Program-made: the position numbers and the translations under genes
Source: Bacteroidales bacterium
GTDB taxonomy: Bacteria; Bacteroidota; Bacteroidia; Bacteroidales; NBLH01
Assembly: GCA_016937695.1 (NCBI GenBank)
Contig: JAFGWC010000133.1
Coordinates: 1 to 64,000 of the forward strand
Length of the DNA: 64,000 nucleotides
Reading direction: 5' to 3'
In this document: positions 18,152 to 47,399 of the stretch, piece by piece
Layout of the letters: each line of letters begins with the position of its first letter
Position numbering within the stretch: position 1 is the stretch's first letter
Notes under the pieces: generated by a model
Databases searched by the model: none
What the model saw: only the letters and a program-made list of their open reading frames with translations
Told to the model about the DNA's origin: nothing

Positions 18152-18182
18152 TTGCTTTATGAACATATGTTCATTATATTTG
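18152..18182 (+). promoter_or_regulatory. Bacteroidota sigma-ABfr-type promoter with embedded 16-bp palindrome
   Basis: TTG (18152-18154)-N20-TATATTTG (18175-18182); ATGAACATATGTTCAT palindrome at 18159-18174. Confidence 0.65.
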
Positions 18183-18224: not shown

Positions 18225-18494
18225 ATGCCACGAGGAGACAAAACAGGACCAAGAGGAAGTGGTCCAATGACAGGCCGAAAATTAGGTAATTGTTCGGGAA
18301 ATAATGATAATCAAAATTTTAACCTAGGATTTGGCTTTAGACGAGGACAAGGATTTAGACACGGCTACAGAAGCTTTTCAGAAAACAGAATTTCTGATAT
18401 CAATAAAACAGAGTTTCTGGAAAAAGAAATTGCAACTTTAAAAGAACAAATTGCTTCGATTGAAAAAAAATTATTTAAGAAAAATGAAGATTAG
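18225..18494 (+). CDS. DUF5320 domain protein
   Basis: MPRGDKTGPRGSGPMTGRKLGNCSG signature; C-terminal coiled-coil; SD AAAAGGAGGT at 18211; start refined from ORF-track 18159. Confidence 0.85.
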   Translation: MPRGDKTGPRGSGPMTGRKLGNCSGNNDNQNFNLGFGFRRGQGFRHGYRSFSENRISDINKTEFLEKEIATLKEQIASIEKKLFKKNED

Positions 18495-18673: not shown

Positions 18674-18877
18674 ATGGATAATTTAGGAAATGGAAGAGGC
18701 CTTGGAAAAGGTGGTGGAAAAGGTAAAAATAAAGGCGGTTCATTTGGTGTTGGCGGAAACTGTGTTTGTGCAAAATGCGGTGAAAAAATTGCTCACCAGC
18801 AAGGAGTTAAATGCACAACTATAAAATGCCCAAGTTGTGGACACACAATGATTCGTGAAGAATTGTTGAATAAGTAA
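18674..18877 (+). CDS. Small Gly-rich N-terminus plus Cys-rich (Zn-ribbon or Fe-S) protein
   Basis: 67 aa, CVCAKCGEKIAHQQGVKCTTIKCPSCGHTMIREE; aligns without gaps to the C-terminus of the DUF134 protein at 46848-47357. Confidence 0.8.
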   Translation: MDNLGNGRGLGKGGGKGKNKGGSFGVGGNCVCAKCGEKIAHQQGVKCTTIKCPSCGHTMIREELLNK

Positions 18878-19090: not shown

Positions 19091-19957
19091 ATGAAAATAG
19101 CCATTGCCAGTGGAAAGGGCGGAACAGGAAAAACAACTCTTTCCACTAATTTATCTTTTTATTTATCTGAAAAACATGATGTTGTGCTTGCAGATTTAGA
19201 TGTTGAGGAACCAAATTCTAAGCTTTTTATCGAAGCTGAAGTTTTTCATAAGGAAGATAAATATAAAATGATTCCAAGCTGGATTGAAGATAAATGCACA
19301 CTTTGCGGTATTTGCCATGATGTTTGCAATTATAATGCAATTATCCAACTAGGAACAATGATTTTAGTTTTTCCGGAATTATGTCATAGCTGCTATGCTT
19401 GTTCAGAACTTTGTCCTACAGCAGCATTGCCTATGATTAAACAAAAAATGGGCGAACTAATTCATTTCAAAAATGGCAACTTAAGCTTAATAGAAAGCAG
19501 ATTAGATATTGGACAAGAACAAGCAGTTCCTTTAATTGCCCAAACTATTGATTACGTAGATAAAAATTTCAAAGAAGAAACAATTAAAATCTTTGATTCT
19601 CCGCCAGGAACATCGTGTCCTGTAATTGAAGCAACTAAAGGTGCCGATTTCATTATTTTGGTAACAGAACCAACACCTTTCGGCCTTAACGATTTAAAAC
19701 TAGCTGTTGACACTGTAAAAGAGTTGAAAAAGAATTTTGGAGTTGTAATTAATAGGTATGGTGTTGGTAATGATGATGTTATAACATATTGTAATAATGA
19801 AAAAATACCAATTCTAGCAAAAATTCCTAATAGTAGAAAAATAGCAGAATTATACTCAATTGGGAATATAATTTATGATAAGGTTCCTGAAATGAAGGAC
19901 GAACTTGAGAAAATTGAAATTTTCATCAGCAATTTAAAAACGGGAGGTGAAAAATGA
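19091..19957 (+). CDS. Mrp/MinD-like ATPase with inserted 2x[4Fe-4S] ferredoxin domain (copy 1)
   Basis: SGKGGTGKTTLSTN deviant Walker A; CTLCGICHDVCNYN, CHSCYACSELCPTAAL. Confidence 0.9.
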   Translation: MKIAIASGKGGTGKTTLSTNLSFYLSEKHDVVLADLDVEEPNSKLFIEAEVFHKEDKYKMIPSWIEDKCTLCGICHDVCNYNAIIQLGTMILVFPELCHSCYACSELCPTAALPMIKQKMGELIHFKNGNLSLIESRLDIGQEQAVPLIAQTIDYVDKNFKEETIKIFDSPPGTSCPVIEATKGADFIILVTEPTPFGLNDLKLAVDTVKELKKNFGVVINRYGVGNDDVITYCNNEKIPILAKIPNSRKIAELYSIGNIIYDKVPEMKDELEKIEIFISNLKTGGEK

Positions 19958-20823
19958 AAGAAATAGTTGTAATTTCAGGAAAAGGCGGAACAGGAAAAAC
20001 ATCAGTAACTGCTTCATTTGCAGTGCTTGCTGCCAAAAACGTTGTTGTTGCCGATTGTGATGTAGACGCTGCGGATATGCATATTCTTTTAAAGCCAGAT
20101 TACGCTTTTTCTGAAGATTTTTATAGTGGAGAAATTGCAATAATTGACCAGAATGCATGTATTAGCTGCAACAAATGCAAAGAAGTTTGCAGGTTTAATG
20201 CAATTCCGATAATTGACAATAAATACACTATCGACGAAATAAGCTGCGAAGGTTGTGGATATTGTGCGCGAGTTTGCCCTACAAATGCCATAAAAATGGA
20301 AGAAGATAATGTTGGAAAATGGCATATCTCAGAAACAAGATTAGGAAACACATTAGTTCATGCAAAATTAGGAATTGGAGCCGAAAATTCAGGAAAACTC
20401 GTTGCTAAAGTAAAAAACGAAGCAAAAAGACTAGCAAAAGAAACCGAAAAAGATTTTATTTTAATTGATGGTTCGCCTGGAATAGGTTGTCCTGTTGTTT
20501 CTTCGCTTTCGGGAGCAAATTTTGTTGTACTTGTAACAGAACCAACAGTTTCTGGCAAACACGATTTAGAAAGAGTTTACAAACTAGTTAAAAAATTTAA
20601 TATAAAAGCAGGTTGCATAATAAATAAATACGATTTAAATACTGATGTAACAGATTCAATAGAGAAATTTTTGCAAGATGAAAATATTATTCACCTTGCA
20701 AATTTACCTTATAACGAAAACTTTACAAAAGCAATGATAGAAGGAAAAACAATTGTAGAATTTGAAAACAGTGAGATTAAACAAATTTTAGAAAATAGCT
20801 GGAATTTAATTAAAAATATTTAA
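19954..20823 (+). CDS. Mrp/MinD-like ATPase with inserted 2x[4Fe-4S] ferredoxin domain (copy 2)
   Basis: SGKGGTGKTSVTASF; CISCNKCKEVCRFN, CEGCGYCARVCPTNAI; ATGA overlap with copy 1. Confidence 0.9.
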   Translation: MKEIVVISGKGGTGKTSVTASFAVLAAKNVVVADCDVDAADMHILLKPDYAFSEDFYSGEIAIIDQNACISCNKCKEVCRFNAIPIIDNKYTIDEISCEGCGYCARVCPTNAIKMEEDNVGKWHISETRLGNTLVHAKLGIGAENSGKLVAKVKNEAKRLAKETEKDFILIDGSPGIGCPVVSSLSGANFVVLVTEPTVSGKHDLERVYKLVKKFNIKAGCIINKYDLNTDVTDSIEKFLQDENIIHLANLPYNENFTKAMIEGKTIVEFENSEIKQILENSWNLIKNI

Positions 20824-20866: not shown

Positions 20867-21205
20867 ATGAAAATAGCTTTTACAACAAAAGGAACAGAAT
20901 GGGAATCGTTAATGGATGCCAGATTTGGCAGAACAGAATTTTTCCTTTTATATGATGAAGAAAATGACAGTTTTATACATTTTGATAATAGAGATGTTGA
21001 AAATGATGCACATGGCGCAGGACCAAAAACTGCTCAAAAACTTTTTGAATTACAAGCACAAGTTTTAATTACCGGAAATGGACCAGGCGGAAATGCGGCT
21101 ACAGTTTTAGAAAAAGCAGGAATAAAAATTTATACAGGCGCAGGTGAGATGACTGTAAAAGATGCTTATAATGCTTTAAAAAACAATGAGTTAAAAGAAT
21201 TTTAA
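20867..21205 (+). CDS. NifX/NifB-type dinitrogenase Fe-Mo cofactor-binding family protein
   Basis: DARFGRTEFFLLYDEEN...AQVLITGNGPGGNAATVLEKAGIKIYTGAGEMTVKDA. Confidence 0.85.
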   Translation: MKIAFTTKGTEWESLMDARFGRTEFFLLYDEENDSFIHFDNRDVENDAHGAGPKTAQKLFELQAQVLITGNGPGGNAATVLEKAGIKIYTGAGEMTVKDAYNALKNNELKEF

Positions 21206-21291: not shown

Positions 21292-21612
21292 ATGAAAAAT
21301 TTAATGAATTTGTACGAAAATGCTGATTGGGAAAAAGCAGAGGGATATCCTAAAGGAACTTTTAAAAAAGATTTAAGAGACGACAAGTTTGGCAAAACTA
21401 TATTGTTAAAACTTCCTGAAAATTTTCAAATGAAACCACACTCGCATATAACAACAGAACAACATTTAGTGCTTGAAGGTGAATATGTGAGTAGCGGAAA
21501 AACTTATAAATCAGGATGTTATCAAATATTTAATCCTGGAGATGAACATGGCCCTTTTGAATCTAAAAAAGGTGCACTTATTCTTGTAATTTGGGATGTA
21601 TTAACAAAATAA
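21292..21612 (+). CDS. Cupin-domain protein
   Basis: MKPHSHITTEQHLVLEGEYVSSGKTYKSGCYQIFNPGDEHGPF. Confidence 0.8.
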   Translation: MKNLMNLYENADWEKAEGYPKGTFKKDLRDDKFGKTILLKLPENFQMKPHSHITTEQHLVLEGEYVSSGKTYKSGCYQIFNPGDEHGPFESKKGALILVIWDVLTK

Positions 21613-21631: not shown

Positions 21632-21925
21632 ATGAAAACAATAGAAGAAGTAGTTGCAGAATTAAGAAAAGTTGGACATCCGGCAATAGATTATTCACTA
21701 ATTGAGCTTGGCATTTTAACAGATATTGATTTGGAAAACAATAAAGTAGATGTCGTTTTTGCTTTTCCATTTCCAAATATTCCCATTGCTGATCAGCTAA
21801 TTAATTCTGTAGCTATTCCGGTTAAAAACATGGGATTAGAATTTAATTACAGCATAAGAGGAATGAATGATGAAGAAAAAACAATGTTTATGACTCTTGA
21901 GTCTCAAGGCTGGAAAGACAAGTAA
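21632..21925 (+). CDS. MIP18/DUF59-family iron-sulfur assembly-like protein
   Basis: EVVAELRKVGHPAIDYSLIELGILTDIDLENNKVDVVFAFPFPNIPI. Confidence 0.75.
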   Translation: MKTIEEVVAELRKVGHPAIDYSLIELGILTDIDLENNKVDVVFAFPFPNIPIADQLINSVAIPVKNMGLEFNYSIRGMNDEEKTMFMTLESQGWKDK

Positions 21926-22160: not shown

Positions 22161-23192
22161 ATGTTAATCGAAGCGTTTAAAATTTTTAAGCATGCAATAA
22201 TGATAACCAGCTTTGTTTTTGTAATGATGCTGGTTATTGAATATATTAATGTACAAACAAGTGGAATGTGGCAAAATTTGATTTCTAAAAATAAATGGAA
22301 ACAATACGTTTTTGCCGCTTTACTTGGAGCAATTCCGGGATGTTTAGGCGCATTTACTGCTGTAGCTCTTTTTTCGCACCGATTAATCTCTTTTGGCGCA
22401 ATTGTAGCAACAATGATTGCAACAAGCGGCGACGAAGCTTTTGTTATGTTTGCGATGATTCCAAAAGAAGCGTTTATAATTACAATAGCAATTTTTATTA
22501 TAGCAATTTTTGCAGGCTATTTTACTGATAAACTTTATAAACCCAAGAAAATACTCGATGATTTTGCCGAAAAAAATTTCCCGCTTCACAAAGAAGAAGA
22601 ATGTAAATGTTTTCAAAAAGAGAATTTCTTTAAACAATTATTAAAACCATCTTTTCCTCGAATTGCCTTAATTATTTCATTATTGTTTTTTTTAATTACT
22701 GTTTCAACTGGATTTTTAGCCGGAAAATCAGAATTTTGGATAAAAATAACTATTTTATTAACAATTATTTTCTCGCTTTTTATAGTTATTAGTGTACCGG
22801 AGCATTTTTTAAAAAAACATTTGTGGGAACATATTGTAAAAATGCATATTCCAAGAATATTCATGTGGACTTTTGCAACATTACTCGTTTTCGGAATTTT
22901 AATGAATTATTTAGAATTAAATAGCTGGATATCAGAAAATATGTTTTTCGTTTTAATTTTTGCAATAATTGTTGGAATTATTCCGGAATCAGGTCCACAT
23001 TTAATTTTTATAACACTTTTCGCTGAAGGAACTATTCCATTAAGCATATTGCTTGCCAGCTCTATTTCGCAAGACGGACACGGAATGTTACCACTTTTAG
23101 CCGAATCAAAAAGAGGATTTTTAGCAGTTAAATTTGTAAATGTTGTTGTTGCATTTATTATTGGCCTTTTAGGTTATATTTCAGGATTTTAA
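22161..23192 (+). CDS. Putative 10TM heavy-metal/manganese transporter (ArsP_2-type)
   Basis: Polytopic; GAIPGCLGAFTAVALFSHRLISFGAIVATMIATSGDEAFVM and GIIPESGPHLIFITLFAEGTIP inverted halves. Confidence 0.8.
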   Translation: MLIEAFKIFKHAIMITSFVFVMMLVIEYINVQTSGMWQNLISKNKWKQYVFAALLGAIPGCLGAFTAVALFSHRLISFGAIVATMIATSGDEAFVMFAMIPKEAFIITIAIFIIAIFAGYFTDKLYKPKKILDDFAEKNFPLHKEEECKCFQKENFFKQLLKPSFPRIALIISLLFFLITVSTGFLAGKSEFWIKITILLTIIFSLFIVISVPEHFLKKHLWEHIVKMHIPRIFMWTFATLLVFGILMNYLELNSWISENMFFVLIFAIIVGIIPESGPHLIFITLFAEGTIPLSILLASSISQDGHGMLPLLAESKRGFLAVKFVNVVVAFIIGLLGYISGF

Positions 23193-23256: not shown

Positions 23257-25113
23257 ATGTTAAATTTAAGAAACGAATTTATTTTAGCACCTGTAAAATT
23301 AGGATATAGCGATAAAACAGGTGTTGTAAATCAAAAACACATAGATTTTTATAATCAAAGAAGCAAACACATTGGAGCTGTAACTCCAGAACCATTTTTT
23401 ATGGATGCCGGATTAAGAGAACTTCCCACACAAATGGGAATAGATAGCAACGAAAAAATTGAAGGTCTTAAAAAATTAACCGATACAATTCATAAAAACG
23501 GCGCAAAAGCCATTGCTCATTTAAATCATCCGGGAAGAATGGCAAATCCCAAAATACCTGGAAATTATTTTCTTTCATCAACAGATAAAGCATGCGAAAA
23601 TGGCGGCGCAATTCCCGAAAAAATGAACAGAAAAAAAATGGATGACGTTATAAATCTTTTTGTCGAAAGTGCTAAAAGAAGCGTAAATTCCGGTTTTGAC
23701 ATTATAGAACTTCAATTCGGACACGGATATTTAATGGCTCAATTTATTTCGCCTGCTGTTAATGATAGAACCGATGAATATGGCGGAAGCTTTGAAAACA
23801 GAATTAAATTTCCTGTTGAATTAGCAAAAGCTGTAAGAAAAGCTATTGATATTCCTATTATTGCAAGAGTTAGCGGCGATGAAATGATTCCAAACGGATT
23901 TCATATTGACGAGATGATTAAATTTTCGAAAGAGCTTGAAAATATTGGTATTAATGCAATTCATGTTACAGCCGGTTCTGCTTGCACTACTCCACCGTGG
24001 TTTTTCCAACATATGTTTATCCCAAAAGGAAAAACATGGGAGTTGGCTTCAAAAATAAAAGAAAATGTAAAAATACCTGTGATATTTGTTGGTAGAATAA
24101 ATTCTGAAAAAGACATTAAAGAAATCAAAACTAAATATTCTGCAGATTATTTGGCTTTAGGAAGAGCATTAGTTGCCGATCCGGATTTTATTGGAAAACA
24201 CACAAAACAGATAAAAGGAAATATAAGACCTTGTTTGGCTTGTGCCGAAGGTTGCTTAGGCGGCGTAAAACAAGGAAAAGGTTTAGGCTGTGTTGTTAAT
24301 CCACTGGTTAACACAGGATTAGCTGAAATTAAAAAATCATCAGAAAAAAAATATTATGCTGTAATTGGTGGCGGATTAGCCGGAATGCAAGCTTCATTAA
24401 CGCTTAAAGAAAAAGGCTATGATGTTGATTTATATGAAAAAAATGAACTTGGCGGACAATTTAATTTAGCTTGGCTGCCACCAAAAAAAGAAAGTTTAAA
24501 AGAAATTATTGATTATTTTATAAACGAATTAAAAAGCCTGAATGTTAATATAATTAAAAAAGAAGCAACGGAATCTGTTTTAAATGATAAAAAATACGAT
24601 GGAATAATAATGGCAACAGGCGCAATACCTGCAATTCCACCAATTGAAGGTTTAACCGAATATTATTGGACAGAATTTCTAGATGACGAGCAACTGCCTA
24701 AAAATCAGAAAGTTTTGGTGATTGGCGGCGGTTTAATCGGACTAGAAGTAGCATCAAAACTAGTAGATGGAAACAATGAAGTGATTGTTGTTGAAATGCT
24801 TGACGAAATAGCTCGCGGAATGGAAATGATTGAAAAAGCAATGACTATGAAAAAATTAAAAGATAATCAAACAGAAATTCTTTTAAATCATAAAGTAATT
24901 AAAATAGATAAAGATAAAGTATTTATTGAAAGTGGTGACAATCAGAAAATTATAGACAACATAAATAAAATTGTTATTGCTGCTGGAATGAAAAGTTTTG
25001 TGCCTTTTAAAATATCTGAAACATCAAAAATATATTTTGTTGGCGATGCAAAAAAAGTAGGAAAAGCCCAAGAAGCTATTCACGATGCATACGAACTTGC
25101 AATAAATTTGTAG
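23257..25113 (+). CDS. NADH:flavin oxidoreductase (OYE/2,4-dienoyl-CoA reductase type) with Fe-S and FAD/NAD domains
   Basis: OYE barrel; CLACAEGCLGGVKQGKGLGC cluster motif; GGGLAGMQAS and VIGGGLIGLEVA Rossmann motifs. Confidence 0.9.
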   Translation: MLNLRNEFILAPVKLGYSDKTGVVNQKHIDFYNQRSKHIGAVTPEPFFMDAGLRELPTQMGIDSNEKIEGLKKLTDTIHKNGAKAIAHLNHPGRMANPKIPGNYFLSSTDKACENGGAIPEKMNRKKMDDVINLFVESAKRSVNSGFDIIELQFGHGYLMAQFISPAVNDRTDEYGGSFENRIKFPVELAKAVRKAIDIPIIARVSGDEMIPNGFHIDEMIKFSKELENIGINAIHVTAGSACTTPPWFFQHMFIPKGKTWELASKIKENVKIPVIFVGRINSEKDIKEIKTKYSADYLALGRALVADPDFIGKHTKQIKGNIRPCLACAEGCLGGVKQGKGLGCVVNPLVNTGLAEIKKSSEKKYYAVIGGGLAGMQASLTLKEKGYDVDLYEKNELGGQFNLAWLPPKKESLKEIIDYFINELKSLNVNIIKKEATESVLNDKKYDGIIMATGAIPAIPPIEGLTEYYWTEFLDDEQLPKNQKVLVIGGGLIGLEVASKLVDGNNEVIVVEMLDEIARGMEMIEKAMTMKKLKDNQTEILLNHKVIKIDKDKVFIESGDNQKIIDNINKIVIAAGMKSFVPFKISETSKIYFVGDAKKVGKAQEAIHDAYELAINL

Positions 25114-25155: not shown

Positions 25156-25587
25156 ATGGAATTAATTTTTGCTTTTGCTTTAAACAACGAAAATATTTTC
25201 GGTAAAAAACACTTTGGTGATGCAGAAAAGTTTTTGATTTATAAAGTTAATAATGACGAAATTATACTTTATGAAGAAGCTGAAAATCCTTTTATAAATT
25301 TTAATGAAGAACAAGAACACGGATCAAAATTAAAAGCAAAAGCAATAATTAAGTTTTTGAAAGAAAAAAATGTTAATGTTCTGGTATCAAGACAATTTGG
25401 AAGAAATATTAAAAGAATAAATAGTTATTTTATTCCTATTATTATTTATTCTGATGAAACAAATGACGCAATTCAGGCTATTAATAAACATTTACATTGG
25501 ATAAAAGACGAGCTTAAAAACAGTTCCGGCGAATACAATTTATTTACAATCAAATCTGGGATTTTAAAATCTAAAATTAAAAAATAA
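25156..25587 (+). CDS. Divergent NifX-like Fe-Mo cofactor-binding family protein
   Basis: FGDAEKFLIYKVNNDEI...KAKAIIKFLKEKNVNVLVSRQFG. Confidence 0.65.
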   Translation: MELIFAFALNNENIFGKKHFGDAEKFLIYKVNNDEIILYEEAENPFINFNEEQEHGSKLKAKAIIKFLKEKNVNVLVSRQFGRNIKRINSYFIPIIIYSDETNDAIQAINKHLHWIKDELKNSSGEYNLFTIKSGILKSKIKK

Positions 25588-25653
25588 CCAACTTCGTTGG
25601 ATTTTATATTTAAACATAATTTTCTCTGTAATCTAATTATCTTAAATTTATAT

Positions 25654-26499
25654 ATGAAAACATATCTTGATTGTTTGCCATGTTACATGAATCAAGCAAT
25701 ACGAGCCGGAAGAATGGCAACCAATGACGATAAAAAAATAAAACAATTACTAGACCAAGTTGGCGATATGATAAAACATATTCCAATGGAAAACACACCT
25801 GCAGAATCAGGCGCGATGATTTATCAAAAAATAAAAGAAATTACCGGAGTTGAAGATCCGTATAAGACAATAAAGCAGAACAGCATTAACGAAGCAAAAG
25901 CTCTTTATCCCGAATTAAAAGAAATTATTAATAAATCGAAAGACAAATTATTAACAGCAATAAGAATAGCAATTGCAGGAAATATTATTGATTTTGGAAT
26001 TAATAAAAAATTTAATTTAGTTGATGATGTAAAAAAAATATTAATTCAGGATTTTGCAATATTTGATTACGAAAAGTTTAAATCGGAATTAGAAAAATCT
26101 GAAAATATACTATATTTAGCAGATAATGCAGGCGAATCTGTATTTGATAAATTATTAATAGAAGAATTAAATAAAAAAGTAATTTATGCAGTTAGAGAAA
26201 TTCCTGTAATTAACGATGTTACAATTCAGGATGCTATTGATTCTGGAATTGCAGATGTTGCTGAAATTATATCTTCCGGCGTAAAAGCTCCGGGAACAAT
26301 TTTAAATCAATGCAATAATAATTTTTTAGATTTATTTGATACTGCAGATATGATAATAAGCAAAGGACAAGGCAATTACGAAGGCTTATCAGATATAAAC
26401 CGCTCTGTTTTTTTCTTGTTAAAAGCAAAATGTTCGGTAATTGCAAAAGATATTGGAGTAAAAGAAGATGATATTGTTATAAAATCTATAAATTTATAA
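25654..26499 (+). CDS. DUF89/ARMT1-family (damage-control phosphatase-like) protein
   Basis: MKTYLDCLPCYMNQAIRAGRMA...ILYLADNAGESVFDKLLIEEL; start refined to ATG 25654. Confidence 0.85.
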   Translation: MKTYLDCLPCYMNQAIRAGRMATNDDKKIKQLLDQVGDMIKHIPMENTPAESGAMIYQKIKEITGVEDPYKTIKQNSINEAKALYPELKEIINKSKDKLLTAIRIAIAGNIIDFGINKKFNLVDDVKKILIQDFAIFDYEKFKSELEKSENILYLADNAGESVFDKLLIEELNKKVIYAVREIPVINDVTIQDAIDSGIADVAEIISSGVKAPGTILNQCNNNFLDLFDTADMIISKGQGNYEGLSDINRSVFFLLKAKCSVIAKDIGVKEDDIVIKSINL

Positions 26500-26971: not shown

Positions 26972-27541
26972 ATGATTAAAATCAAAGTATTTATTTTTGT
27001 AATAGTTTTATTTACAATAACTTGCAAAAACAAAACTCAACTCACTTATAATCCAATCGGATATTTTTCGTCGCAATACAATTTAGAAACAGGCGCTCCG
27101 CGTCAAGGGGCTTTAGTTCCTGATTCTAAAGGAATTATAATATTAGATGAAAAATATATGAAAGCCTTAAACAGTTTAAACCAATTCGAATATATTTGGG
27201 TTTTATTCCATTTTCATGAAGCAAAAGGATATGAAAATATTGTAAAACCTCCAGAAAGCAATCACGAATTCGGCCTTTTTGCAACAAGAAGCCCAAGGCG
27301 TCCAAATCCTATCGGATTATCATTAATTAAGCTCGATTCTATTGTTAAAAATAAACTTTATGTTAGTGGAATAGATATTTTTGATAAAACACCTGTTCTT
27401 GATATAAAGCCATTCTTACCTTCGGTAGATTGCATGATTACAGAAAAAAACATGATTGCCGAATATTATCTTGGACATCATACCGAAAATTATATAAATG
27501 ATTCTTTAGTGAAAATATTTATTGAAGGAGAAAAAAAATAA
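26972..27541 (+). CDS. TrmO/TsaA-family protein with N-terminal signal-like hydrophobic segment
   Basis: NPIGYFSSQYNLETGAPRQG...FGLFATRSPRRPNPIGLSLIKLD; N-term MIKIKVFIFVIVLFTITCKNK. Confidence 0.85.
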   Translation: MIKIKVFIFVIVLFTITCKNKTQLTYNPIGYFSSQYNLETGAPRQGALVPDSKGIIILDEKYMKALNSLNQFEYIWVLFHFHEAKGYENIVKPPESNHEFGLFATRSPRRPNPIGLSLIKLDSIVKNKLYVSGIDIFDKTPVLDIKPFLPSVDCMITEKNMIAEYYLGHHTENYINDSLVKIFIEGEKK

Positions 27542-44511: not shown

Positions 44512-45519
44512 ATGAAAGATATAAAACTATACATATCAGTTTTAATTATAATATTATCTGTATTTGTATCATGTAATAATGATTCTATTTATAATAAAAA
44601 AGAAATAGTCGTTGAGCAGTCAAAAAATGTTAACGAAACTGAACTTCTTTTTAATTTCATCGAAAAATCAGGGAATTTAATAGATTCAAAAAATACTCCA
44701 GCACTAGTTTTAGCTGATGAAGTATATGAAAACATAGACAATTATCTAATAATTGATATTAGAGATAATGGAAGTTATGAAGAAGCACATATTGAAAATT
44801 CGATTAATATAGAGCCAAATGAGATAGCAAAATATTTAAGCGTTCAAAATGATTTGTCTACACATAAAAAAATTGTTCTTGTATGTTATGCAGGACAAAC
44901 TGCCTCTTATTACGCAACATTATTGAGATTTATCGGCTACGGAAATGTTTACGCTTTAAAATGGGGAATTTCTGGTTGGGCAAATTCATCAACAAATGAA
45001 TGGAAAAACAATATTTCAAGCAAATATATTTCTCTTATGGAATTTGCAGAAAATAAAATGCCTGAAAAAAGCGATTATCCAAAAATTTCAACAGGAAAAA
45101 CTAATGGTTACTTAATTATAAACGATCGTGTTCAAAAACTAGCAACTGAAGGTTTTAAAAAAGCCAAAATAGATGCTAGCACTGTTATCGAAAATTCTGA
45201 CAATTATTATATTATAAGCTATTTACCAAAAGAGGTATATTCTGAAGGACACATAAAAGGCTCTGTTCAATATGAACCAAGAAAATCACTAGACAGAAAT
45301 ACTTTTTTATCAACTTTACCAACCAATAAACCTATCGCTGTTTATTGCTATTCAGGTCATCAAAGTTCTTCTGTTGCTGCATACTTAAGGATTTTAGGAT
45401 ATGATGCTATGACTGTTGTATTTGGTGCAAATAGTTTTATGTATCAAAAAATGATAAATGATTCAGGACACGCATTTAATCCCCAAAAAGATATTGCAAA
45501 TTTTCCAACAATAAATTAA
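44512..45519 (+). CDS. Lipoprotein with two rhodanese domains
   Basis: Lipobox-like VFVSCNND; active loops VCYAGQTAS and YCYSGHQSS. Confidence 0.85.
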   Translation: MKDIKLYISVLIIILSVFVSCNNDSIYNKKEIVVEQSKNVNETELLFNFIEKSGNLIDSKNTPALVLADEVYENIDNYLIIDIRDNGSYEEAHIENSINIEPNEIAKYLSVQNDLSTHKKIVLVCYAGQTASYYATLLRFIGYGNVYALKWGISGWANSSTNEWKNNISSKYISLMEFAENKMPEKSDYPKISTGKTNGYLIINDRVQKLATEGFKKAKIDASTVIENSDNYYIISYLPKEVYSEGHIKGSVQYEPRKSLDRNTFLSTLPTNKPIAVYCYSGHQSSSVAAYLRILGYDAMTVVFGANSFMYQKMINDSGHAFNPQKDIANFPTIN

Positions 45520-45524
45520 AAAAC

Positions 45525-45563
45525 AAAAAAAGCTTTCAAAATCAAATTTGAGAGCTTTTTTTT
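45525..45563. terminator. Bidirectional intrinsic terminator between convergent genes
   Basis: AAAAAAGCTTTCAAA-ATCAAA-TTTGAGAGCTTTTTTT. Confidence 0.85.
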
Positions 45564-45586
45564 GATATTTATTCTTTTAAAATAAA

Positions 45587-46768
45587 TTAAACTTTTGCCA
45601 ATGCTTGATCTAAATCAGCAATAATATCTTCAACATTTTCAATTCCAACAGAAAACCGAACTAAATCTTCAGTAATTCCTGCTTTATCTTTATCTTCTTT
45701 AGATACTGCAGCATGAGTCATTAATGCAGGGTGCTGGATAAGAGTTTCAACACCACCTAAAGAAACAGCTAATATAGCAAGATGAACATTATCCATCAAA
45801 GTTTTACCTGCTTCTAGACCACCTTTTAAGCCAAAACTAATCATAGAACCAAAACCACTCATTTGCTCTTTTGCTAATTCGTGCTGAGGATGAGATTTTA
45901 ATCCTGGATATTTTATCCAAGCAACTTTAGGGTGATTTTCAAGATATACTGCAACTTTCATAGCACTTTCCATAGCTCTTTCAACTCTAATAGCAAGAGT
46001 TTTAACACCTCTTATTACCATAAATGCTTGATGTGGATCCATATTGCTTCCAATATAAACCATTGCATGCCTAATTTTTTTATAAAGATCTTCTGTTTTT
46101 GCAACAATAACACCGCCTACAATATCAGCATGTCCATTAATAAATTTAGTTACTGAATGAAATACAACATCAACGCCTAAATCGAGAGGTTTTTGCAAAT
46201 ATGGACTTGAAAATGTATTATCAACAACAACAATAAGATTATGTTCTTTTGCTACTTTAACAGCAGCTTTTAAATCTGTTAATTGCATTGTTGGATTTGA
46301 AGGTGTTTCAATATATAATACTTTTGTATTTGGCTTAATAGCAGCTTTAATATTCTCAATATCTGAAGTATCAACATAAGAAGATTCAACACCAAAACGA
46401 CTAAAATCTTGTTCCATTAAACCTCTTGAAGGCCCATAAACAGAAGCTGTACTAATCATATGAGAACCTTGACTTAATAAAGCAAAATAAATTGCACTAA
46501 CAGCACCCATTCCTGAACTAGTTGCAATACCGCCGAATCCGTTTTCTAGAGCAGCAATATTATCTTCTAAAGCTTTAATTGTTGGATTACCTATTCGGGT
46601 ATAGATATAATCGTTGCTTTTACCTGAAAAGCAATCAGCACCATGTTGTGCACTTTTAAATTTAAATGTAGATGTTTGATAAATAGGTACAGTTGCACTA
46701 CCCATTTCGTCTTCGTATGCTCCTGCATGTATTAATTTGGTATCAAATCCTAAGTTTTTTGTATCCAT
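45587..46768 (-). CDS. Trans-sulfuration PLP enzyme (methionine gamma-lyase / cystathionine gamma-synthase type)
   Basis: TRIGNPTIKALE, YIETPSNPTMQLTDL, VDNTFSSPYLQKPLDLGVDVVFHSVTKFINGHADIVGG. Confidence 0.92.
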   Translation of the reverse strand: MDTKNLGFDTKLIHAGAYEDEMGSATVPIYQTSTFKFKSAQHGADCFSGKSNDYIYTRIGNPTIKALEDNIAALENGFGGIATSSGMGAVSAIYFALLSQGSHMISTASVYGPSRGLMEQDFSRFGVESSYVDTSDIENIKAAIKPNTKVLYIETPSNPTMQLTDLKAAVKVAKEHNLIVVVDNTFSSPYLQKPLDLGVDVVFHSVTKFINGHADIVGGVIVAKTEDLYKKIRHAMVYIGSNMDPHQAFMVIRGVKTLAIRVERAMESAMKVAVYLENHPKVAWIKYPGLKSHPQHELAKEQMSGFGSMISFGLKGGLEAGKTLMDNVHLAILAVSLGGVETLIQHPALMTHAAVSKEDKDKAGITEDLVRFSVGIENVEDIIADLDQALAKV

Positions 46769-46847: not shown

Positions 46848-47357
46848 TCAGCTTTCCTCTTTATTTTTTTGTTGCTGGTACAAATACGAATTTTCCCTAA
46901 GCATAGGTTCTCCACAATTAGGGCATTTATTTTCCATACATGGCTTTCCTGCAATATGAGTAATTCTGATATCACATTTTAAACAAATACAATATCCACC
47001 TATTCCAAATTCATATTTTACATTTTTAATTGCTGAATTATCATCATCAGAATAAATTAAATTTTCATCAAGAGAATAATCTCCACCTTTGATGATAATT
47101 ATTTTACCTTCAACAAATGCTTTGGCAATAGTTTTTCTGGCTTTGTCATAAATCCTACTAAAAGTCGGTCGTGAAACGTTCATTTTTTTTGCAGCATCTT
47201 CTTGCGTAAAATTATTATAATCAGCTAGTTTCAGAGCTTCGTATTCTTCGTTTAATAAAATAAGCGCCTCTGCATTCTTAACTCTTACTCCTATTGGCTT
47301 AAATCCTTCTGTTAAAGGTAAAGAAAACATTTTCCTGCTACGTTTGGGTCTTGGCAT
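46848..47357 (-). CDS. DUF134-family DNA-binding protein with C-terminal Cys-rich ribbon
   Basis: MPRPKRSRKM...LADYNNFTQEDAAKKMNVSRPTFSRIYDKARKTIAKAFVEGK; C-term CICLKCDIRITHIAGKPCMENKCPNCGEPM. Confidence 0.9.
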   Translation of the reverse strand: MPRPKRSRKMFSLPLTEGFKPIGVRVKNAEALILLNEEYEALKLADYNNFTQEDAAKKMNVSRPTFSRIYDKARKTIAKAFVEGKIIIIKGGDYSLDENLIYSDDDNSAIKNVKYEFGIGGYCICLKCDIRITHIAGKPCMENKCPNCGEPMLRENSYLYQQQKNKEES

Positions 47358-47370
47358 AATATTTTTTGTG

Positions 47371-47399
47371 TAAAGTTAGCGAACATTTGTTCGATACAA
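47371..47399 (-). promoter_or_regulatory. DUF134 promoter with embedded palindrome (putative autoregulatory site)
   Basis: Minus strand TTG (47399-47397)-N18-TAACTTTA (47378-47371); palindrome CGAACATTTGTTCG at 47380-47393. Confidence 0.6.

Follow-up and report, generated by a model that had tools for sequence, protein, structure and literature searches.

The window analysed here, a 64-kb stretch of DNA taken at its full length, carries two copies of one palindrome, the first in front of a gene cluster headed by a DUF5320 gene and the second in front of a DUF134 gene. DUF134 (UPF0251, COG1342; PF02001) is annotated as 'predicted DNA-binding protein', and this is the only copy detected in its genome. 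The relevant features of the window are listed below.

18152..18182, plus strand: promoter core around operator 1, with TTG at −33 (18152-18154), N20, and TATATTTG at −7 (18175-18182)
18159..18174, no strand assigned: predicted operator 1 in the promoter of the DUF5320 cluster; palindrome ATGAACATATGTTCAT with its core at 18161-18172
18225..18494, plus strand: DUF5320 protein (MPRGDKTGPRGSGP..., 89 aa; PF17253, 74.6 bits), which heads the predicted target cluster
18674..18877, plus strand: Gly/Cys-rich protein of 67 aa with a Cys domain like the DUF134 C-terminus; the orthologue in genomes G003 and G004 directly carries the palindrome
19091..19957, plus strand: MinD/Mrp-type P-loop ATPase with ferredoxin insert (CbiA/ParA + Fer4)
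19954..20823, plus strand: second MinD/Mrp-type P-loop ATPase with ferredoxin insert (CbiA/ParA + Fer4)
20867..21205, plus strand: NifX/MTH1175-like (Nitro_FeMo-Co) protein (PF02579, 57.6 bits)
21292..21612, plus strand: ChrR-like cupin, cluster gene (PF12973)
21632..21925, plus strand: FeS_assembly_P (MIP18/SufT-like) protein, cluster gene (PF01883)
22161..23192, plus strand: putative heavy-metal exporter of the ArsP_2 family (PF11449), candidate member of the cluster transcript
23257..25113, plus strand: NADH:flavin oxidoreductase/Old-yellow-enzyme family protein (PF00724 + PF07992), candidate member of the cluster transcript
25156..25587, plus strand: second NifX-like protein (PF02579, 39.6 bits)
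25597..26499, plus strand: ARMT1-like (DUF89) damage-control phosphatase (PF01937); a homologue at locus L156 has its own operator
46848..47357, minus strand: predicted DUF134 regulator, 169 aa (PF02001, 87.6 bits against a cut-off of 27)
47371..47399, minus strand: promoter core around operator 2, with TTG at −33 (47399-47397), N18, and TAACTTTA at −7 (47378-47371)
47380..47393, no strand assigned: predicted operator 2 in the promoter of DUF134; palindrome CGAACATTTGTTCG with its core at 47381-47392; TGAACnnnnGTTCA at orthologues

The palindrome pair at 18159-18174 and 47380-47393, about 29 kb apart, had been pointed out in an earlier note made from the letters alone, and both copies were found where it had placed them. 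Exactly two copies of the pattern GAACAnnTGTTC are present in the window against an expectation of 0.05, and none of 100 shuffles contained two. Exact matches to GAACANNTGTTC over the whole window fall at 18161-18172 and 47381-47392, again with 0.05 expected from dinucleotide shuffles. The note had seen no further copy, and the exact core is indeed limited to these two; the near copies at 27387 and 37968 each carry one mismatch and are as frequent as chance would give. The promoter context was also read correctly at both sites, each copy lying between a TTG −33 and a TAnnTTTR −7 element of the Bacteroidota type. At the second site the outer T/A of the consensus is replaced by C...G, and the DUF134 ATG lies about 23 nt downstream on the minus strand. 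The true start of DUF5320 is the ATG at 18225, preceded by AAGGAGG; the ATG given in the list of open reading frames falls inside the palindrome, upstream of the −7 element.

The DUF134 protein consists of a helix-turn-helix (HTH) whose recognition helix, SRPTFSR (residues 62-68), has the SRxT feature conserved in the family, followed by a C-terminal Cys-rich domain. An AlphaFold2 model built from an 81-sequence alignment (mean pLDDT 85.9) places high-confidence HTH helices at 35-46, 51-57 and 62-82 (model numbering, first Met omitted) and a separate Cys domain beyond a low-confidence linker. The nearest solved folds to the HTH in Foldseek searches were sigma region 4 and the DNA-binding domain of Bacillus subtilis DeoR on its operator; the match to 7bhy spans 39 residues at about 0.7 Å with 33% identity and an E-value of 0.07. 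These matches are short and local, and with no more than about 45 residues aligned their E-values are weak (0.03 at best). DeoR was also the only near sequence match found with phmmer (E 0.012; helix NISRPTVSRLLQ against NVSRPTFSRIYD in DUF134). This SorC/DeoR protein (PDB 7BHY, 8R7Y) has the recognition helix SRPTVSR where DUF134 has SRPTFSR, and it shares TTGAAC half-sites and the right half CATATGTTCAA with the DUF134 operator. Two DeoR residues, R34 and R39, contact bases of its operator, ATTGAACAAAATTTCAATTACCAATTTACATATGTTCAA, and the base contacted by R39 is the G of TTGAAC, G4 (PMC11229326). Once construct tags are taken into account, R39 and R34 would correspond to Arg68 and Arg63 of DUF134. 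Unlike DeoR, whose tetramer binds a 39-bp operator, DUF134 has a compact palindrome of 14-20 bp, and its targets differ. The SorC sugar-phosphate effector domain (NagB/RpiA-like, about 250 residues) is absent from the 169-aa protein; a short Cys-rich C-terminus, or in other DUF134 proteins a NifX-like domain, is found instead. The protein likewise falls outside the sigma-70 region 4/ECF family, since PF04545 scores 21.1 bits against a cut-off of 24.1 and there is no region 2. The Cys-rich domain (46905-47012, minus strand) resembles the 67-aa protein of the cluster (18674-18877), with 50% identity over 36 aa (E 4e-12).

The earlier note had called for a genome-wide scan and had treated random scatter of the motif as fatal to its proposal. 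The outcome depends on the length of the motif: the 12-bp core is near background, while the 16-bp form is enriched at DUF134 and cofactor-cluster genes. Seven exact copies of the core are present in the genome, compared with one for a reversed-pattern control; they comprise the two window sites, one other intergenic site on contig C99, and four sites within coding sequence, which is about the chance number for a core with 10 specified bases. Specificity thus lies in the longer 16-20 bp form together with its position, and the bare core is not specific genome-wide. The copy on contig C99, GAACATATGTTCAT (G000:C99:4974-4985; L007:1501-1512), lies 5' of a gene for a DUF5777 outer-membrane beta-barrel protein that scores below threshold.

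Seven genomes of the genus, the present one and six others, together contain 13 copies of the longer palindrome ATGAACnnnnGTTCAT; the reversed control gives one. Of the 13 copies of ATGAACNNNNGTTCAT in these genomes, 11 are located at the promoter of a DUF134, DUF5320, NifX-like or Cys-rich/Mrp gene. For comparison, 20 genomes of the same order or class in which no DUF134 was found contain eight copies of ATGAACNNNNGTTCAT (control four), none of them of the ATGAACATATGTTCAT form. The note had further proposed that DUF134 orthologues lacking the palindrome upstream would speak against its reading. One DUF134 gene each in G001, G003, G004 and G006 has TGAACAnnTGTTCA or TGAACATAAGTTCA on its 5' side. 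G002 and G005 have second DUF134 paralogues with TGAACTTATGTTCA and TGAACAATAGTTCA, and a G002 paralogue carries two TGAACGCAGGTTCA; the same half-site is kept in all three sequences. Upstream of the G005 copy at L015 the palindrome is absent. Operator 1 is preserved as well: as in the window, TGAACATATGTTCA stands 5' of DUF5320 in G001 and G006. The Mrp cluster of G003 and G004 has no DUF5320 gene at its head, and there the palindrome precedes the NifX-like gene and the orthologue of the 67-aa Cys-rich protein. Two related sites, GAACAAATGTTC at L088:2054 (G006) and GAACAGATGTTC at L098:1949 (G001), lie about 350 bp 5' of what seems to be the same molybdopterin oxidoreductase gene, a possible further target.

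Beyond the genus, DUF134 was present in 74 of 299 sampled genomes of the phylum (about a quarter), as well as in archaea and on plasmids of Klebsiella, Citrobacter and E. coli; none was found in viral contigs and phages. Alkalitalea saponilacus is one host with both the gene and the operator. In nine of ten genomes of its class, TGAGCATATGCTCA occurs as exactly one copy per genome, 5' of DUF134. On the other hand, the Chlorobia-type proteins (L026-L054 except L045; the Chlorobia label is a guess), which begin MKxxRxGRP and have the helix SRQTFGR or SRPTFGR, show no such palindrome within 1.5 kb of their genes. DUF134 genes without a site of their own can sit in operons at whose head the palindrome precedes a DUF5320, MBL-fold, NifX or small membrane protein gene. 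Judged by operator position, the predicted targets comprise DUF134 itself, DUF5320, NifX-like proteins, the Cys-rich protein and Mrp ATPases, MBL-fold hydrolases, an ARMT1-like phosphatase, a peroxiredoxin, a multihaem Cytochrome_cB protein (L199) and an Mrp ATPase of Selenomonas. DUF134-NifX neighbours recur in Bacillota and on enterobacterial plasmids. The gene types are those of the MTH1175/NifX-Mrp (ORP-type) Fe-S/cofactor clusters (DUF5320, Mrp-like ATPases with ferredoxin, NifX-like), to which the present analysis adds a predicted cognate regulator and operator. Multihaem cytochromes of the Cytochrome_cB type were seen both with an operator in front (L199:10165-11766) and adjoining DUF134 (L097:4512-6122).

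The operator was then compared with the recognition helix in 237 distinct DUF134 genes covering several phyla; they came from the genus and its phylum, from another class, from plasmids and from a genome collection. Sites were scored within 160 nt upstream against the template TTATnnnnAT-ATnnnnATAA, with symmetry scored at the four variable positions. A score of at least 17 was reached by 113 of the 237 genes, against 1.3 expected from first-order Markov resamples of the same sequences, an excess that is not fully independent because the template was drawn from the same data, the letters at the variable positions being left free. With the variable bases written x1, x2, x3 and y4, residue 68 is Arg where x1 is G and another residue where it is T (106 of 106), and residue 67 is Thr or Ser where x3 is A and Gly or Ala where it is G (104 of 106; exceptions L307 and L318). 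When the set was thinned to below 65% identity (54 genes), the top-ranking column among 93 was 68 for x1, 64 for x2 and 67 for both x3 and y4. The individual pairings are diverse. SRPTFTR and SRPTLTR go with GAAC, SRATFGR with GAGC, SR[PA]TFAR with GAGA, SRQTFGR with GGGC or GAGC, SRGT[IY]QR with GTGC, SRATVGR with GCGC, S-P-x-TFSR with GAAT, and SRQTFGN with TAGC. SRQTLAN of enterobacterial plasmids goes with TGGC, and ARTTVQ, SRATIQ and SRTTVT of Bacillota and Treponema with TGAC. Two close Bacteroidales DUF134 proteins, L318 and L319, share the helix SRPTLSR and have TGAGCATTTGCTCA and TGAACATTTGTTCA, respectively, an exception to this code.

The ranking of columns serves as an imperfect control for relatedness, since all columns share one phylogeny. 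A first covariation set contained three to four independent changes, and sampling was then widened with another class and plasmids. On the wider tree, one to two pairs per trait fall on supported branches and are concordant whenever the operator differs, which is too few for significance. Because the tree resolves so few independent pairs, the argument rests on the within-protein column ranking and on the DeoR structure, whose R39-G4 contact agrees with the pairing of Arg68 with G at x1. Covariation of the operator with the recognition helix across phyla points to DUF134 itself as the binder.

Very probably, then, the palindrome is the operator of DUF134, and a dimer of the protein would occlude the core promoters, repressing both its own gene and the DUF5320/Mrp cluster 29 kb away. 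The proposal in the earlier note that DUF134 autoregulates and controls the distant cluster gains support from conservation in the genus and from helix covariation, and we infer the following course of the predicted regulation. DUF134 would be a small DNA-binding regulator with an HTH like those of SorC/DeoR and sigma region 4. In TTATGAACATATGTTCATTA the half-sites, both (A)TGAACA, may be read by its dimer with residues 63-68 of the recognition helix, the first variable base (G) by Arg68, the second by residue 64, and the third and fourth by residue 67. The operator is placed within the core promoter, in the −33/−7 interval here and over the TTGACA −35 box in Bacillota, and bound DUF134 would therefore most likely block RNA polymerase at its own promoter and at that of the DUF5320/Cys-rich/Mrp/NifX cluster. 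The overlap with the gene's own core promoter recurs at DUF134 genes beyond the window. Among the DUF134 promoters of Bacteroidota, the TAnnTTTG −7 element begins at one fixed operator position in 28 of 29 occurrences, and the Bacillota palindrome TTATTGACATATGTCAATAA contains a TTGACA −35 box, fully in L323 and less perfectly in L322, L325 and L326. The simplest reading of this arrangement is that DUF134 occludes polymerase and so represses its own gene.

MerR-type activators also sit in the −33/−7 spacer. With the sigma-region-4 resemblance of its HTH, DUF134 might therefore bind the palindrome as an activator, either in a MerR-like manner from the spacer or by recruiting polymerase. We consider this unlikely. 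Promoter spacing is near normal at 18-20 nt, the Bacillota operator covers the −35 hexamer itself, and many of the promoters have perfect −7 elements and so should work unaided. Moreover, the nearest solved HTH belongs to a repressor, DeoR (PMC11229326).

A genomic ArsR that represses both promoters from an ArsR/SmtB-type metal-sensor operator is a considerably less probable explanation. The palindrome TGAACAnnTGTTCA resembles the ArsR/SmtB consensus. The cluster genes include a putative heavy-metal exporter, the genome itself has two clear ArsR genes, and in G002 and L110 an ArsR gene is divergent to DUF134 across the operator. SmtB/ArsR-type 12-2-12 repeats of Anabaena have this core, AATACCTGAACA-GA-TGTTCAAGTATT (PMC8790569), and these sensors share with DUF134 a similar palindromic core and a promoter-overlapping position, while the protein families are unrelated. 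Neither ArsR promoter in the genome has the site, however, and GAACn4GTTC was present in just two of 29 loci from an ArsR search of the genus, one being the DUF134 operator of G002 (L338) and the other lying far from the gene (L348). In addition, the variable bases shift with the DUF134 helix (TGAGC, TGAGA, TGTGC, TTAGC, TTGGC and TTGAC classes), which is not predicted for an ArsR binder. ArsR/SmtB was rejected as the binder on the grounds of this covariation and of the absence of the site at both ArsR promoters of the genome and at nearly all ArsR loci scanned in the genus. That no regulator is involved, and the promoters share the motif by chance or because a promoter segment was inherited from a common ancestor, is highly improbable and was dismissed: the 12-bp core is near background and the genus promoters share common ancestors, but upstream sites number 113 against 1.3 expected and window copies two against 0.05, the genomes with TGAGCATATGCTCA have one copy, at DUF134 only, and the same gene types carry the site on rearranged contigs and in different phyla with the letters changed and the symmetry kept.

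Repression by DUF134 would be released by a signal sensed through the C-terminal Cys-rich domain, or in other lineages through the fused NifX-like domain. A metal, an Fe-S cluster or a sulfur species is a plausible signal, because the Cys domain matches the 67-aa protein of the cluster and because a DUF134-type protein of Pusillibacter is annotated NifB/NifX. With moderate confidence we extend this reading to DUF134 as a widespread class of autoregulatory sensors that join a SorC-like HTH to a Cys-rich or NifX-like metal/Fe-S domain and that would control Mrp/NifX/DUF5320 cofactor clusters and some redox enzymes and read TTATx1x2x3y4AT palindromes by a residue-to-base code (68-x1, 64-x2, 67-x3/y4). 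If this is true, the sequence of a DUF134 protein from Bacteroidota, Bacillota, Spirochaetota or a proteobacterial plasmid could be used to predict its operator and hence its regulon.

The open-access literature searched yielded no operator, regulon or mechanism for DUF134/UPF0251/COG1342 and no functional description of DUF5320; an iron-starvation paper taken for a mention of DUF134 was discarded, the term there being DUF1349. A defined operator with a residue-base code would give this domain of unknown function a role. It would also link to one predicted regulator the DUF5320, Cys-rich, NifX-like and Mrp clusters, which are no better characterised, such that identifying its signal would reveal their purpose. 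Since several bacterial phyla show the same pairing, the DNA letters changing along with those of the protein, the family is directly testable.

A few neighbouring genes deserve mention. Directly 3' of DUF134, both in the window (region 44512-46768) and in G004 (L103:970-2148), is a gene for a trans-sulfuration-type enzyme (MDTKNLGFxTKLIHAGAY...), and beyond it in the window is a gene for a rhodanese-like lipoprotein; the two hint at sulfur metabolism. Plasmids of Klebsiella, Citrobacter, E. coli, Proteus and Morganella, some of them conjugative, also carry DUF134-NifX pairs (L328, L329, L330, L331, L332, L333), in many cases accompanied by genes for PaaI thioesterase, Dps or a SLAC1 channel, and with paired TGGCATATGCCA-like operators upstream. 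On a Micrarchaeota contig with DUF134, a DUF5320-like gene (L172:4532-4768) has TTTTGAATATAAATTCATTA upstream.
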